The translations under genes and the position numbers were made by a program. From a virus, in the IMG/VR virus record IMGVR_UViG_3300005935_000199, positions 1 through 20,108 of that record: DNA of 20,108 nt; one strand, given 5' to 3'. The notes below the pieces were generated by a model. It was given only the letters and a program-made list of their open reading frames with translations, was not told the DNA's origin and searched no databases. This document shows positions 4,591-13,817 of the stretch, in pieces (position 1 is the first letter of the stretch; the number at the start of each line of letters is the position of its first letter).

Positions 4591-5151
4591 TTATTCGCCC
4601 GTGCTTGAGCTTGAGCTACTACTCGAACTTTCCGAACTGCTGCTCGAACTCGACGAGCTGCTACTACTTGAGCTGCTGCTCGAACTTTCCGAGGAGGAAC
4701 TGCTACTACTGCTGCTACTACTACTCGAACTAGAGCTACTACTACTCTGTTGTGTATCGCTTACTATTTGTTCAATACAGATAAGAAACCTAGTAGTTGG
4801 ACTAGCTGGTGTCTGCGGTGGCTTTAGTGGGAGAGCTATTCCCACAGTCTGAGAAGTATCACCTGCTGTTGCTGAAACCGCGCCCGGGGTATTAGACAAA
4901 TACACAAGATCTCCAGCGAACAACGAAACTGGCGCATCCTGCATAATTCCCATATGCTTAATTTCTGCTATATCCCCTTCAACAACGGTTGTTTCAGCAA
5001 ATCCTACACAAGGTAATTCCTCAATACCTGTACCAGCACAAGCCAGATAAGCTAAACCGCTGGTCGTATCAATCTTCACAGCTTCTCCTGCTGTAATATC
5101 TTCACCAGCAATCGCGGGAAAATTCGGAAAACGGTTGACAAACTTTGCCAT
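4591..5151 (-). CDS. Capsid cement/decoration protein with C-terminal polyserine tail
   Basis: 186 residues; ATG 5151 follows AGAGGTG. The first ~130 residues are a small beta-rich domain (ITAGEAVKIDTTSGLAYLA, GFAETTVVEGDIAEIKHMG) of the type seen in DUF2190-like capsid decoration proteins. It is a clear paralogue of the next gene upstream. After residue ~135 the chain is almost only serine, about 45 residues broken by two glutamates, ending in TGE. Serine codons are mixed, so this is not a simple single-codon slippage tract. The gene lies immediately before the major capsid gene. The tail probably projects from the capsid surface as a flexible, possibly modified chain; that is inference. Confidence 0.75.
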   Translation of the reverse strand: MAKFVNRFPNFPAIAGEDITAGEAVKIDTTSGLAYLACAGTGIEELPCVGFAETTVVEGDIAEIKHMGIMQDAPVSLFAGDLVYLSNTPGAVSATAGDTSQTVGIALPLKPPQTPASPTTRFLICIEQIVSDTQQSSSSSSSSSSSSSSSSSSSESSSSSSSSSSSSSSSSSSESSSSSSSSSTGE

Positions 5152-8645: not shown

Positions 8646-8722
8646 TGGTCGGGGCGGCTGGAATCGAACCAGCGACCTCCGGCTCCCAAAGCCGCCGCGC
8701 TACCAAGCTGCGCCACGCCCCG
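8646..8722 (-). tRNA. tRNA-Pro (anticodon TGG), CCA encoded
   Basis: A 77-nt canonical cloverleaf: acceptor CGGGGCG/CGCCCCG, D loop AGCTTGGTA with GG, anticodon stem GCGGC/GCCGG around TTTGGGA, T arm GCTGG TTCGAAT CCAGC, discriminator A and encoded CCA. C1-G72 and the overall sequence are close to bacterial tRNA-Pro. It lies 7 bases downstream of another tRNA in the late operon, so both are probably cut from the late transcript. Confidence 0.95.
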
Positions 8723-8729
8723 ACAAAAT

Positions 8730-8803
8730 TGGTAGCGAGCCTCGGAGTCGCACCGAGATCTCCGGCGCATGAGGCCAGCGACTTTCTGTTTGTCCAGCCC
8801 GCG
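8730..8803 (-). tRNA. Atypical tRNA-CAT, initiator-like
   Basis: 74 nt with encoded ACCA. Acceptor CGCGGGC / GCTCGCT has six pairs and a C1-U72 mismatch. The D stem is GAC/GTC, giving A11-U24. The D loop AAACAGAAA has no GG. Anticodon stem CTGGC/GCCGG surrounds CTCATGC (anticodon CAT) with G-C pairs at 29-41 and 30-40; variable loop AGAT; T arm CTCGG TGCGACT CCGAG, where position 55 is G. An unpaired 1-72, A11-U24 and the CGCGGGnTGGA start are marks of bacterial initiator tRNA; the third G-C pair of the anticodon stem (31-39) is reversed to C-G. The missing D-loop GG and T55 weaken the D/T loop contact. It could be an initiator-like tRNA, an Ile2 tRNA, or a decaying gene. Confidence 0.7.
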
Positions 8804-8936: not shown

Positions 8937-10445
8937 TTACCATCGAGTTCTTAGCAACTTCCTCAGCTTGTCAGAAGAAGGTATGCCTCCAATCAACTTC
9001 TCACCCTTATCATACCCTCTTCGGACTCGTTTTGTCAATGCTAAGTTCGCTAACATCAACGAATCCAAAAAATCAACGTTCTTCCCCCGCCTCTTTTCGC
9101 CTGTGCCCATGCGGGCTGTTCTTAATGCTTCTCGCAATTTAGGGAACTCTTCCAGATGAACAATAAGAGTGCCACTCTCTAAATTAGCTATCAACCAACT
9201 TAGCATTTCGCTACGAGGAACATTACGCCACTGCAACCCTTCTACACGATCTACTCGTTCGGTTGCTCGATGTCCTGCTGTAAAGTTCACTGCTACTTTT
9301 GTCCGAGCATTTACTAAAGCAGGTATTGCACTGTCTTTGGTGCCATCAATGAATAGCGAACCAGGCCAATTTTTGTCAAGTGTCTCAATAGTTGCTACTT
9401 TCCCTGTGGTAGATTGGCGAGGATAGCTAAACTGGGAAACAACTTGTGGAGGTCGCGTGTGAAGATCAATAACTGTATGCACAGTTAAATCTCGGCCAGA
9501 ACCAGCAGTATCCACCCCTTTGCTATAACGATGAGCAACAATTGGCTTATGGCCTATAAAATCTATACTGGCTGCGAATTCCTCTATTATCCGCACATCA
9601 ATTGCCTGCTCTCCACTTTTTATCCGCTTCAGCTCATGCTCTTCCTCCCACTCTGCAATTCTTCCTGAAAATTTCTTTTGAGAACGCTCTTTCCAAGTCT
9701 TGCCGTTATCATCACCCCAACGACCAGGATGTGCCCGCCAATCAATAGGCAAATGAATAAGCCCTAACGCCTCGTGATTGTCAACACACTCACAGAAAAA
9801 ATCTCCATCGCCATTGTAGGTACTTACCAAAAATATAGGTGCATTCTCCATATCGTCAAGAGTGCGGGCCAACGTTCGCCAGACACCCTCAGCATACGGC
9901 ATATAAGCAACTTCCTCCATTAGTGCCGCATTACCATCAAAGCTACGGCTGGCTGTCTCCTTAGAAGGATGAGCACGAATATAATTATGAGCAGAGGGAG
10001 TATAATAGCGAATCTCAACATTCTTAGTTTTAGGATTGATGCCATCAATGTGCTTTCGTTGCTCCACAGACAATTCTGCTGTATCAAGAGCGACCTTAGC
10101 AATCTTCAAAAGCCGCTCTACAGCAACTTCCTCCGAGTTAGCAATAATATGGCAATGCAACGGTATTCCAGTTGCTTTATGCCGGTAAATAAGTTGATGT
10201 GCATACCCCATCACTACTGCTGTTGAAGCTCCGATCTGGCTAGATTTGTCAATGACATACGCTTTACCTGCTGCCACTGCTCGCATAATTTGTTTTTGGA
10301 AGTCATACGGCGTAAACGGAACCAAACCGTGTACCTTGCTTTCAATATAAGGCTTAGCCACCTCACACCAAGCAACAGGATCAAGAACTACATCATCCTC
10401 GTTGTACTGAGAAATGTTGCTCCGTCTGCTTTGAAGAATAGCCAT
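8937..10445 (-). CDS. terL: Terminase large subunit
   Basis: 502 residues from ATG 10445; an in-frame GTG at 10460 directly abuts the upstream stop and neither start has a strong ribosome site. ATPase part: PYDFQKQIMRAV adenine-binding-type motif, Walker A-like DKSSQIGAST (about 66-75), Walker B NAALMEE (about 172-178, hydrophobics then acidic pair) and the coupling motif LVSTYNGDGDF. Nuclease part: GVDTAGSGRDLT (first acidic residue about 312), LFIDGTKDS (about 365) and NVDFLDSLMLANLAL with a late acidic residue, the RNase-H-like acidic set that cuts concatemers. The conserved Arg of the usual 'sRQ.G.S' Walker A is Ser here. It follows the cupin gene and precedes the portal region. Confidence 0.9.
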   Translation of the reverse strand: MAILQSRRSNISQYNEDDVVLDPVAWCEVAKPYIESKVHGLVPFTPYDFQKQIMRAVAAGKAYVIDKSSQIGASTAVVMGYAHQLIYRHKATGIPLHCHIIANSEEVAVERLLKIAKVALDTAELSVEQRKHIDGINPKTKNVEIRYYTPSAHNYIRAHPSKETASRSFDGNAALMEEVAYMPYAEGVWRTLARTLDDMENAPIFLVSTYNGDGDFFCECVDNHEALGLIHLPIDWRAHPGRWGDDNGKTWKERSQKKFSGRIAEWEEEHELKRIKSGEQAIDVRIIEEFAASIDFIGHKPIVAHRYSKGVDTAGSGRDLTVHTVIDLHTRPPQVVSQFSYPRQSTTGKVATIETLDKNWPGSLFIDGTKDSAIPALVNARTKVAVNFTAGHRATERVDRVEGLQWRNVPRSEMLSWLIANLESGTLIVHLEEFPKLREALRTARMGTGEKRRGKNVDFLDSLMLANLALTKRVRRGYDKGEKLIGGIPSSDKLRKLLRTRW

Positions 10446-10460
10446 AATTGAGATCAACAC

Positions 10461-10844
10461 CTATAGATTTGCAAAAGCTGAACCGTCTATACGCCAATGA
10501 CGCACTACATCTTCATCATCGTGATGAGTTGAAACTTCCAGTATGATACACGGCTCACTTGAAGCTCCAATCAACAAATGAGCAGATCCAGGAGGAATAC
10601 ACACCGAACTGCCTACACATAACTCGTGAAACTCTATGCAGTTATCATCCCGCTCAAGAAGCAACCAAGCACATCCATTTAGGCACAAAAAGGTCTCGTT
10701 CTTGTGTTTATGGTGATGATAGCTACCTCCACAATTCTGATTAACTGTTAGTATCTTAGCACAATATGCTTCGGTATTTACCAACCAGTCCTCGCTACCC
10801 CACGTCTTTTCCACATGCTTGAAGCCCAACTTTTCCCAATTCAT
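10461..10844 (-). CDS. Cupin-fold metal-binding protein
   Basis: 127 residues from ATG 10844, which follows AGAGGA; seven codons upstream is a weaker in-frame ATG. The chain starts WEKLGFKHVEKTWGSEDWLVNTEAYC and carries the cupin 1 motif (SYHHHKHKNETFLCLNG: metal ligands His, His and Glu) and cupin 2 (PPGSAHLLIG, with His). Such single-domain cupins resemble the C-terminal part of mannose-6-phosphate isomerase/GDP-mannose pyrophosphorylase and small sugar isomerases. The enzyme activity cannot be told from sequence. It stands 22 bases after the tmRNA-like RNA and its stop touches the terminase frame, so it belongs to the late operon. A role in sugar-nucleotide or surface-glycan change is one guess. 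Confidence 0.75.
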   Translation of the reverse strand: MNWEKLGFKHVEKTWGSEDWLVNTEAYCAKILTVNQNCGGSYHHHKHKNETFLCLNGCAWLLLERDDNCIEFHELCVGSSVCIPPGSAHLLIGASSEPCIILEVSTHHDDEDVVRHWRIDGSAFANL

Positions 10845-10866
10845 TATAGTCCTCTCATTTGCCAAA

Positions 10867-10949
10867 TGGTGGAGGCGTCGGCATTCGAAGCCGAGTCCCG
10901 CAGCGGCCCCCTTCGGGATTTAACTGCGGTCGAAACCATTCTCGCCCCC
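10867..10949 (-). ncRNA. tmRNA-like RNA: tRNA-like domain only, no tag reading frame
   Basis: 83 nt. Acceptor GGGGGCG pairs fully with CGCCTCC and includes a G3-U70 wobble, with discriminator A and encoded CCA, the identity set for alanyl-tRNA synthetase. The following AGAATGGTTTCGAC is the conserved tmRNA D-loop signature (GGnTTCGAC) with no D stem. The T arm is TCGGC TTCGAAT GCCGA, preceded by GGGAC as in tmRNA. Between them a 6-bp helix CCGCAG/CTGCGG corresponds to tmRNA helix 2, but instead of pseudoknots and tag frame it closes on a ~20-base loop with CCC-GAAG-GGG. No normal anticodon arm can be drawn. It is therefore the tRNA-like half of tmRNA alone. It sits 22 bases upstream of the cupin start. 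Confidence 0.8.
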
Positions 10950-11177: not shown

Positions 11178-11420
11178 TTATTTATCTAATTCTTCTAACC
11201 TATACACACTGGGTAGACCGAGCTTGTCAGACAATTCGCAAAAACAGTCATAGCAGAGAATGTGGCCGCGTCTAATGTGCGGGTCAATCTGCTCCCAGAT
11301 ACAATCGGGGGCTATGAAGCCGTGAACATCCCGTCCACAGTGTTTGCAGAACTCTGGTATCGGACGAAACCGTCTTACCAAAAGTTTGATACTAACTAAT
11401 AGAAAGCGCATCACAATCAC
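11178..11420 (-). CDS. Zinc-ribbon protein, 80 aa
   Basis: The frame begins at GTG 11420 inside the methyltransferase stop; an alternative ATG lies three codons in (11411). The N-terminus is hydrophobic and basic (FLLVSIKLLVRRFRP), followed by FCKHCGRD and, 29 residues later, ILCYDCFCE: two CxxC pairs with a His (HIRRGHILC) between, a zinc-ribbon layout. The segment DCIWEQIDPHIRR between the pairs is well ordered and charged. It lies within the duplicated methyltransferase tail and so was probably added as a unit. Function unknown; many phage zinc ribbons bind nucleic acid or protein partners. Confidence 0.65.
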   Translation of the reverse strand: MIVMRFLLVSIKLLVRRFRPIPEFCKHCGRDVHGFIAPDCIWEQIDPHIRRGHILCYDCFCELSDKLGLPSVYRLEELDK

Positions 11421-13714
11421 AACTCCAGTTTATGCTGTTTGCTGCGCGTGGCCTTCTCTAATCGCTTGCGGCCAATCTCGTTATAGTCGGCGCTGATTTC
11501 CGAGCCGATATAGTCGCGGTTCTCCTCAATGCAGACCACGCCGGTTGTGTGTGCTCCCGCGAATGGGTCATAGGTTACACCCGGGCGCGTCTCTCCCCCG
11601 CAAGTACAGGTCGGTTGCCAGCCGATGGTCTTGTTCAGGTAACGGTCCCCATTCTGTGCTCTATTCAACTGATGTTCGGCCGTCTTGCCTTGGTCAAAGT
11701 GACTGCCCTTCGCGCTTGCGTCTGGCATATCAGTCTTCTCCACAATCCGCTCCCACGGCCTCCCGCACTCCACGCAGACCTTCGGCGGGCAGCCAGCGCG
11801 GATGGGCTTGCGGATTAGCTCCGGCGGGTAGACGGCGAAGTGCGCCTCGGGGAACGGGCAGGTCGGTATTGTCCAATGGTCGTCATCGGCTTCTGGCATC
11901 TGTTCACCAGGCGCAAGCTCAAAGTACCCATATCGCAGGCCATAGTCGCGAAGAGCTTGCTGGGCTGCTTCTACTTCTTCTTTTGGCAATCGCCAGCAGT
12001 CGCCAGGGTTCTTGCCGAGGGGGTTGTGTCCTTGTGTCCCCGTCCTGTTGTGATTCCATTCCGTATCAGCAACCCATTCGCCGGAAACGCGCGAACCCAA
12101 TTCGGGTTGTTGGTGTGCCTCCCTCACCGCGTCCAGGTCAAACCAGTACCTCGCGGCCTTCGTGAAGAAGAATATATGTTCCCACGTACACGAGAAGCGG
12201 TCTTTGACTGAGGACGGCATCGCGTTGGGCTTTGAGTTGTGTGTCAATACACCAGACGCCAGCGCGAATGTGTGCGGCTCATCCGCCACGCCAATGTCAA
12301 AGAACTTCCGGCCCTTGGCTTTCTGGATACTGACGATCTCGCCATTGTCCTTTACCGACCAATGGTGAGGATGAGAGGACATATCGAAACGCACTTCACC
12401 ACGAAACGCCTTGTATGTCTTGCCGGCACACTGGGCCGTGCTGAGATTGATTCGCACTCGTATGCCCAACCGCGCCCCCAGTGTCCGCAGGTCTTGCTCC
12501 AGAGCATAGTTGCGTGTGAACCCAAGCCGCCAGCGATCATTCAATTTATCATAGTGACCATCGCCATCAAGGTAGCCCTGGAGAACTGAAAGCAGAAAGG
12601 CGTTACTCCTCTGCCAGCAGGCCATTGAGAGGTGCTTGCACTTTGCGCCTTTGCCGCTGATGTACTGGCGCAGTATGCCCAGCAGAGGCGGGCTGAATAT
12701 GTTAATCGTCTGACACTGGCCACCGGTATTATGTGCTCGGCACGAACCGTCAAAGGCCTCGGCGATATTGCGCAGGCGCCGGAGCCTGTCCACCTCGTTC
12801 ACATTGCCGGAGAATTGAATGCAATTACCGTTCTGCCCAAGGCTGCCCTCAGCAAGGTATAGCCCAACAAACCAGCCAATATCCTCGTCTACCAGTGCGG
12901 TTGGGCATCGCGGGGTTTCCGGTTCGGGAATAGTAGTTGTCTTTATTGTGTCGCCCACTCTTAGTTCGTGCGCCGGGACCGCACCTCGTTGTGTGGGCCA
13001 CTTATGGCCCGGGCTACAGGTTATCCTCTCGCCGCTCCTTAACCGCAGCTCATAGCCAATAGCAGCCGCCTCCGACCAGCCCAAGCACTGCGTCCACTTC
13101 TCGCCATTCCACAACTGTACCGTGCTGGGGTCAAGGCGAACCATATCCTTGACCATCATCGGCATTTCGCCCTTTTGAGTTCTGGCGTAGACGGTCGTGC
13201 CACCACCCAGACACCACACAATATCATTGCGAACCCACCAGCCCCGCTCCTGCATCCCGATAGCGAATCTGGCAGGTATCAGCAGCAAGTTCTTCGGCTT
13301 GAGCCAAGAGTCGGCTTTGCTTGTTTGCATCTTAGCGCGAGGGACGGGCGTTCCGTCCGGCAAACCGTCTTGCTGGGGGTCTAGCCGTGACGAGGGGCAT
13401 CCCGTCCCGTGGTCGTTGCGCCCCGTTGTCCTCTCGCCACCGCTACCGTATGTATCCCCCATATTCACGAAGCAGCAGCCGGTCGGCTTCAGCACCCGCT
13501 TAACCTCGTCAAAGATAGCCCACAACTTCTCCAGATACTCCTGCGGGTGCGGCTCCAGGCCAAGCTGACCGTCAACTTGATAGTCGCGGAGGCCCCAGTA
13601 AGGAGGTGAAGTCATAATCAGGTCAATAGTGCCATCCGGTATCTTACGCATCTCGGACAGCGCGTCGCCCTGCCGAATCTCCCAGCTAAACTTTTCGGAG
13701 ACGAAATTAGTCAT
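11417..13714 (-). CDS. DNA methyltransferase (beta-class, TSPPYW) interrupted by an intein
   Basis: 765 codons from ATG 13714; a TTG frame start at 13741 is possible but neither has a clear ribosome site. The host protein (about 439 residues after splicing) has catalytic motif IV TSPPYWGLRDY near residue 36, an F-V-N-M-G-D-T-Y segment, the family signature RNDIVW/SKPNAMPSSVKDR, and near the C-terminus the AdoMet-binding motif DPFAGAHTTG. Motif order IV before I marks a beta-class N4-cytosine or N6-adenine enzyme of the site-specific phage type, likely protecting phage DNA from restriction. There is no restriction partner. Base composition looks more GC-rich than the flanking late genes, suggesting separate acquisition. 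The second Gly of motif I is replaced by His. Confidence 0.9.
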   Translation of the reverse strand: MTNFVSEKFSWEIRQGDALSEMRKIPDGTIDLIMTSPPYWGLRDYQVDGQLGLEPHPQEYLEKLWAIFDEVKRVLKPTGCCFVNMGDTYGSGGERTTGRNDHGTGCPSSRLDPQQDGLPDGTPVPRAKMQTSKADSWLKPKNLLLIPARFAIGMQERGWWVRNDIVWCLGGGTTVYARTQKGEMPMMVKDMVRLDPSTVQLWNGEKWTQCLGWSEAAAIGYELRLRSGERITCSPGHKWPTQRGAVPAHELRVGDTIKTTTIPEPETPRCPTALVDEDIGWFVGLYLAEGSLGQNGNCIQFSGNVNEVDRLRRLRNIAEAFDGSCRAHNTGGQCQTINIFSPPLLGILRQYISGKGAKCKHLSMACWQRSNAFLLSVLQGYLDGDGHYDKLNDRWRLGFTRNYALEQDLRTLGARLGIRVRINLSTAQCAGKTYKAFRGEVRFDMSSHPHHWSVKDNGEIVSIQKAKGRKFFDIGVADEPHTFALASGVLTHNSKPNAMPSSVKDRFSCTWEHIFFFTKAARYWFDLDAVREAHQQPELGSRVSGEWVADTEWNHNRTGTQGHNPLGKNPGDCWRLPKEEVEAAQQALRDYGLRYGYFELAPGEQMPEADDDHWTIPTCPFPEAHFAVYPPELIRKPIRAGCPPKVCVECGRPWERIVEKTDMPDASAKGSHFDQGKTAEHQLNRAQNGDRYLNKTIGWQPTCTCGGETRPGVTYDPFAGAHTTGVVCIEENRDYIGSEISADYNEIGRKRLEKATRSKQHKLEL
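11444..11470 (-). repeat. 27-bp direct repeat, proximal copy in the methyltransferase 3' end
   Basis: Encodes RKRLEKATR in the functional gene. Identical to 11144-11170; see the methyltransferase-tail remnant. Confidence 0.85.
12236..13213 (-). mobile_element. Intein with LAGLIDADG homing endonuclease inside the methyltransferase
   Basis: 326 residues, Cys168 to Asn493 of the host numbering. It starts CLGGGTTVYARTQ (block A, nucleophile Cys), has block B TCSPGHKW (T..H), two dodecapeptides GWFVGLYLAEGS and SVLQGYLDGDGH (LAGLIDADG, both acidic residues kept), block F FDIGVADEPHTFALASG and ends VLTHN followed by Ser (+1). All splicing residues are present, so it should be active. Removing it restores the usual sequence W-SKPN. 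The two-motif endonuclease would cut intein-free copies of this gene. Confidence 0.92.
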
Positions 13715-13817
13715 AATCAAATATGACGGGGAAACCACCAATGTAAGAAAATTCAGCCCATACTAATAGCTTGGGTTTGTTTTTGATCAGCAGCCTCCCC
13801 ATTATTATACCCCATAA

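Follow-up and report, generated by a model that had tools for sequence, protein, structure and literature searches.

An 83-nt RNA gene in a Mu-like phage genome encodes, with near certainty as judged from its sequence and predicted fold, the complete tRNA-like domain (TLD) of a tmRNA without the mRNA-like part. In bacteria, tmRNA releases stalled ribosomes, and its mRNA-like part tags faulty proteins. Apparently new, to judge from the openly readable literature, is that the phage TLD form constitutes a large virus-specific family, whose members share a connecting helix and a hairpin and occur both in unrelated phages and in sequenced isolates. Comparison of its members indicates that the alanine determinants, the stemless D-loop, the T arm and the covarying connecting helix are under selection and that the tag frame and pseudoknots are absent.

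The RNA gene and its genomic neighbourhood

The window, i.e., the whole stretch of DNA analysed, is the complete IMG/VR record IMGVR_UViG_3300005935_000199 (20,108 bp), a piece of a phage genome assigned as Mu-like from a Mu-type portal, a Mu I-type protease, a major head protein and a terminase. The tmRNA covariance model RF00023 matches positions 10949 to 10867 end to end (model positions 1-374, E 1.2e-23) at 65.1 bits, the gathering score being 47. About 294 of the middle model positions are deleted in this match, that is, the mRNA-like part, the tag frame and the pseudoknots are absent. An initial annotation made from the letters alone had described a whole TLD in which a short hairpin takes the place of the tag part, and had proposed an Infernal run with the tmRNA model; the match bears this description out, and each structural detail mentioned (the acceptor pairs, A73, CCA, the stemless D-loop, the 6-bp helix, GGGAC and the T arm) is found in the sequence. 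Its coordinates (10867-10949) are exact; the strand, which it left unstated, is the minus strand, and the gene is read from its 5' end at 10949 to 10867.

The acceptor (GGGGGCG/CGCCTCC) contains the pairs G1-C72, G2-C71 and G3-U70, and is followed by A73. A linker, AGAAT, lies between its 5' strand and the D-loop, and the connecting helix P2 comprises 6 bp (CGCAGT/GCTGCG; Table 1). None of 200 dinucleotide shuffles folds as well as the RNA (z -2.8). ARAGORN, which is commonly used for annotation, reports neither a tmRNA nor a tRNA at 10867-10949. As a tRNA-Ala the RNA is thus not recognized by this program, and the D stem of such a tRNA is absent from it. Within the clan, the best match is RF00023 and not the mitochondrial RF02544, and the gene is unpermuted.

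Table 1. Features of the TLD-only RNA gene and of the two genes downstream of it in the window.
Feature	Position	Strand	Remark
TLD-only tmRNA gene, 83 nt including encoded CCA	10867..10949	-	RF00023 65.1 bits; family model R1 63.0 bits
5' strand of the acceptor stem, GGGGGCG (G1-G7); its G3 belongs to the alanine determinant G3-U70	10943..10949	-	7/7 pairs with 10877-10871
tmRNA D-loop signature GGTTTCGAC, no D stem	10929..10937	-	close form kept in 24/24 elements found without requiring the D-loop
Connecting helix P2, 5' strand CGCAGT	10923..10928	-	helix covaries across the family
Internal loop and hairpin TAAATCCCGAAGGGGGCC (18 nt), in place of the mRNA-like part of ~250-300 nt	10905..10922	-	family-wide AAA...CC-loop-GG pattern
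Connecting helix P2, 3' strand GCTGCG	10899..10904	-	
GGAC, joining P2 to the T arm	10895..10898	-	
T arm TCGGC-TTCGAAT-GCCGA	10878..10894	-	stem fully paired (5/5) in each of 97 tabulated elements
Acceptor 3' strand CGCCTCC (U70), A73, encoded CCA	10867..10877	-	
Cupin-fold gene (phrog_7851), next gene downstream of the TLD RNA, same strand	10461..10865	-	
Terminase large subunit, opening the Mu-like head module	8937..10460	-	

No tag-bearing piece or other tmRNA part was detected elsewhere in the 20,108-bp record, a split tmRNA being the finding that the initial annotation had set against its own reading. Among 32 related viral records, mostly fragments, a separate tag piece or full tmRNA occurs in one, and a split or permuted tmRNA with a separate tag piece was rejected on these two grounds. 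In the virus concerned (G005, a 123-kb record; locus L010, L299), a full tmRNA of 392 nt lies at 77588-77979 and a TLD-only RNA, separate from it, at 46486-46567.

The same-strand order in the window is an 80-aa ORF, the TLD RNA gene, the cupin gene and the terminase; the RNA gene is oriented along the head operon strand, in agreement with the late-operon position given in the initial annotation. A scan for promoters and terminators around the RNA gene returned nothing useful, and no long DNA match of the RNA region to sequenced phages was found. Other features of the window include genes for tRNA-Pro(TGG) and, as a weak match, tRNA-Met(CAT) at 8646-8803 (minus strand), in the head operon between terminase and portal. 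A DNA methyltransferase gene at 11417-13741 (minus strand) is split by an insert of ~275 aa that resembles an intein (weak match to Pfam intein splicing), and a small head-operon protein encoded at 4591-5151 (minus strand) ends C-terminally in a long serine run with scattered glutamate.

A related terminase (82-85% identical) is encoded in four viral contigs, all four of which carry a TLD element before the same gene block, ahead of terminase. The RNA can be aligned among them, with compensatory changes in P2 and the T stem, whereas the flanking sequences have diverged. In two close relatives of the window phage (L263:4512-4589 and L265:2287-2362), the T-loop reads GGCAGNA instead of the universal TTCRANT, and a G of the D-loop is correspondingly replaced by A; the two changes together may represent tertiary compensation.

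A virus-specific family under selection

The only fixed parts of the first pattern used on IMG/VR were TTCGAC, GGAC, a portion of the T arm and UCCA; the gap could span 14-44 nt, and at least 120 viral contigs matched. A perfect 7-bp acceptor, which this pattern does not demand, is present in 119 of 121 sequences (the first matches listed plus the window). With further IMG/VR scans, at least 204 contigs of the same architecture were found, representing at least 136 distinct sequences. Mostly 75-81 nt long up to A73, these elements have in common an acceptor of 7 bp that includes G3·U70 and is followed by A73, a D-loop without stem, a helix that covaries, GGAC and a T arm; their near-universal plan consists of a connecting helix of ~6-9 bp, an A-rich internal loop and a 3-bp CC/GG hairpin, followed by GGAC and the T arm.

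Some other viral pattern matches turned out to be permuted full tmRNAs, e.g., in L294 and L297/L301 (IMG/VR, 51 and 350 kb), for which ARAGORN predicts the tags ANDSVYEDLRLAA and ANEGNFRLAA. Tunturiibacter phage Tunturi_4 (PP885687.1; L203) carries an apparently permuted, unannotated tmRNA with a long ARAGORN-predicted tag of 33 aa, directly following a gene annotated as an RF-1-domain release factor, so that two rescue parts adjoin.

Covariation was evaluated on an ungapped set of 24 elements (A2), used instead of a MAFFT alignment (A1) in which the acceptor was misplaced. Standard pairs fill 95.5% of the paired cells of this set, changes on both sides occur in 16 of the 23 pairs, and the covariation score is 0.71 as compared with 0.17 for shuffles and 0.07-0.13 for slid partners. 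For 101 model-aligned rows, an alignment that leans towards the structure, the corresponding values are 19 of 23 pairs and 0.66 versus 0.13. The family model R1, built from the 24 elements with the window left out, scores members at 45-94 bits, the window RNA at 63 bits and ordinary tRNAs or tmRNA tails at 34 bits or less, and the window RNA is therefore not a chance match. The initial annotation had suggested searching related phages for the tag-less form with covariation in the connecting helix; the form was found, and its covariation is strong. Its argument against random decay also holds, chance and decay both being ruled out by the covariation, by scans leaving the features free and by conservation in the relatives.

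The G3-U70 pair is present in 136 of 136 distinct viral elements. Since search patterns may produce their own conservation, two scans were run with the parts under test left free. When the acceptor was free, G3-U70 occurred in 58 of 59 distinct elements, the sole exception being a one-base misregister of a known element; A73 occurred in all 59, and acceptor pairs 4-6 vary with compensation. When acceptor and D-loop were both free, a 7-bp acceptor with G3-U70 was found in 24 of 24 elements, 17 of which have the exact TTCGAC and seven slight differences from it. The G-U pair is completely conserved in tmRNA and is a potent determinant for alanyl-tRNA synthetase (AlaRS), and the deformed D-arm of tmRNA makes extensive contacts with SmpB (PMC3985003). 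CCA is encoded in only 42 of the 136 distinct elements, so many of the RNAs would need the host CCA-adding enzyme. A hidden mini-tag was rejected, as a frame running from an Ala codon to a stop was present in 29 of 97 elements versus 31 expected, i.e., without excess.

Occurrence and known counterparts

The TLD-only element is almost absent from bacterial genomes. When 84,980 prokaryote species were scanned with the same pattern, one genome per species, 70 matches resulted, only eight of them TLD-only; most of the remaining ones are weakly paired and resemble the 3' part of an ordinary tmRNA. The copy in Parafrankia directly precedes a phage terminase and portal, and those in Nonomuraea and Acidimicrobiales are near phage-type replication or head genes. 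Seven of the eight genomes contain a full tmRNA in addition; in the remaining one, a single-cell genome of Prochlorococcus, only the viral copy is seen.

Nine sequenced phage isolates carry the element, namely the Streptomyces phages LuckySocke, GiJojo, pSt2308, BRock, Shaeky, Alone3 (counted on a partial BLAST match only) and Riptide, as well as Stenotrophomonas virus Jojan60 and Pontimonas phage phiPsal1. None of the isolate records inspected annotates it as an RNA gene. Considering that ARAGORN misses these genes and that they are usually unannotated even in isolates, the phenomenon has for the most part escaped notice, DS6A excepted. As several of the isolates can be grown on laboratory strains, the role of tag-less tmRNA is directly testable.

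PMC11915505 and PMC4131195 describe the TLD-only kind from DS6A, mitochondria and two plastid genes. Mycobacteriophage DS6A carries a TLD-only tmRNA (Mao et al., 2009, as cited in PMC4131195 and PMC11915505), and the statement in the initial annotation that known phage-borne tmRNAs keep a tag does not stand. Like the window RNA, that of DS6A is phage-borne and reduced to little beyond the TLD, and a similar molecule is reported to inhibit E. coli tmRNA; however, it is a single case in the literature found, likened here by description, and the window phage is Mu-like with a different genome context. The mitochondrial tmRNAs of jakobids and others (RF02544) and the CDS-less plastid tmRNA of Mallomonadaceae also keep the TLD without tag frame or pseudoknots, but they serve their own organism, and the mitochondrial gene is usually permuted whereas the window gene is continuous and unpermuted. 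Standard bacterial tmRNA (RF00023) has in common with the window RNA G3-U70, A73, the stemless D-loop GGNTTCGAC, GGAC and the T arm, but measures ~350-400 nt with its mRNA-like part, as against ~80 nt without it. Full phage tmRNAs, as in Bxz1-type mycobacteriophages and Melnitz, are likewise phage-encoded and tmRNA-derived, but keep the mRNA-like part (in two pieces in Melnitz). No description of a widespread virus-specific TLD family with its own conserved helix and hairpin was found in the openly readable literature.

Possible roles in ribosome rescue

Trans-translation, a target of antibiotics, is found in almost every bacterium. The parts kept in the TLD RNA are those for AlaRS charging, for SmpB and EF-Tu binding and for A-site entry, and the part lost is that for re-registering the ribosome and for tagging, which makes a competitor the simplest reading. 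On the best explanation, to which we assign a probability of roughly 0.55, the RNA would serve as a decoy: charged with alanine, it would bind SmpB and EF-Tu of the host, gain access to stalled ribosomes and prevent tagging in late infection. An inhibitor of trans-translation had been among the roles suggested in the initial annotation. The RNA would be co-transcribed with the late head operon and undergo tRNA-like trimming, a missing CCA being added by the host enzyme, and then charged by host AlaRS. The charged RNA would compete with host tmRNA for SmpB and EF-Tu and enter stalled ribosomes where, having no resume codon, it could add at most one alanine, protein tagging being impossible. Host trans-translation would be blocked or diverted during the synthesis of phage structural proteins. 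Counted in favour of this reading are also the full tmRNA in seven of the eight bacterial genomes, the place of the gene ahead of terminase in all four relatives and the many elements immediately upstream of a major head protein gene.

A DS6A-type TLD-only molecule was reported to be a strong inhibitor of E. coli tmRNA, whether chargeable or not, and titration of SmpB is given as a possible cause (Mao et al., 2009, as cited in PMC4131195). Since charging was dispensable for that inhibition and its determinant is invariant here, titration of SmpB alone leaves some of the conservation unexplained; in nature, TLD RNAs presumably exert at least some of their effect on the ribosome while charged. 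SmpB was encoded in none of the 32 related records, which, being mostly fragments, do not prove its absence, and host SmpB would serve. A phage-borne RF-1-domain release factor was found in one of 50 records, also mostly fragments, and a phage supply of SmpB or of a release factor was rejected on these counts. Further points were counted against the decoy: some elements lie in tRNA arrays outside head operons, and no replacement rescue factor is present in 49 of 50 records, though blocked rescue might need one.

The occurrence of more than 200 viral sequences with selected charging and D-loop features suggests that the rescue pathway commonly matters during infection, and the spread of the gene that many phages tamper with bacterial ribosome rescue. 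As a compact natural RNA, it also offers a ready-made tool to inhibit or dissect trans-translation. A more tentative proposal, possible rather than probable, is that alanylated, SmpB-bound TLDs work actively on stalled ribosomes across this widespread viral family, ending or redirecting rescue without tagging; were it true, an RNA of ~80 nt would enable phages to remodel bacterial ribosome rescue without any phage protein.

Among alternatives to the decoy, a tag-free rescue is rather doubtful. The charged TLD, together with host SmpB, would take the nascent chain on its alanine and the ribosome would be recycled untagged, sparing phage proteins, akin to a suggestion made for tag-less mitochondrial tmRNAs. 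Such a role would account for charging determinants conserved more strictly than SmpB titration needs, and is in keeping with the coexistence of full tmRNA and TLD in one virus and with the persistence of tag-less forms in mitochondria and plastids (PMC11915505). Without a resume codon, however, there is no known route to translocate onto the RNA and end translation, and the phage release factor is missing from nearly all records.

The genomic context raises the unlikely alternative of a processing signal, in which RNase P and tRNA 3' nucleases would cut the tRNA-like fold and give the capsid mRNA a defined 5' end. The element is often ~50-170 nt upstream of a major head protein gene on the same strand, and about 30 of 70 same-strand downstream neighbours, hand-picked and not random, are major head proteins (at least two families, many from one clade); the tRNA fold and the maturation ends are preserved as well. 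Yet neither G3-U70 nor the tmRNA D-loop would be necessary for such cleavage, although both are conserved in scans requiring neither, and other copies are located in tRNA arrays or beside replication genes. Improbable, too, is a decoy without ribosomal role, directed at AlaRS or at a host defence nuclease attacking tRNA-Ala or tmRNA: the invariant alanine identity and the lack of an anticodon to cut would suit it, but the retained stemless D-loop is left unexplained, and the analysis identified no defence or anti-defence gene linked to the element.

A decaying remnant of an integrated or captured ssrA, e.g., an attachment-site fragment, can be dismissed as highly improbable although ssrA serves phages as an integration site, given the two intact ends, the 7/7 acceptor pairing in 119 of the 121 first matches listed, the strong covariation and the conservation of the RNA in relatives; for the window, with both RNA ends complete and no integrase identified beside the gene, an attachment-site copy was rejected. 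Some mycobacteriophage matches, such as that in Validus, contain only the 3' end, lie beside an integrase and are likely ssrA attachment-site copies.
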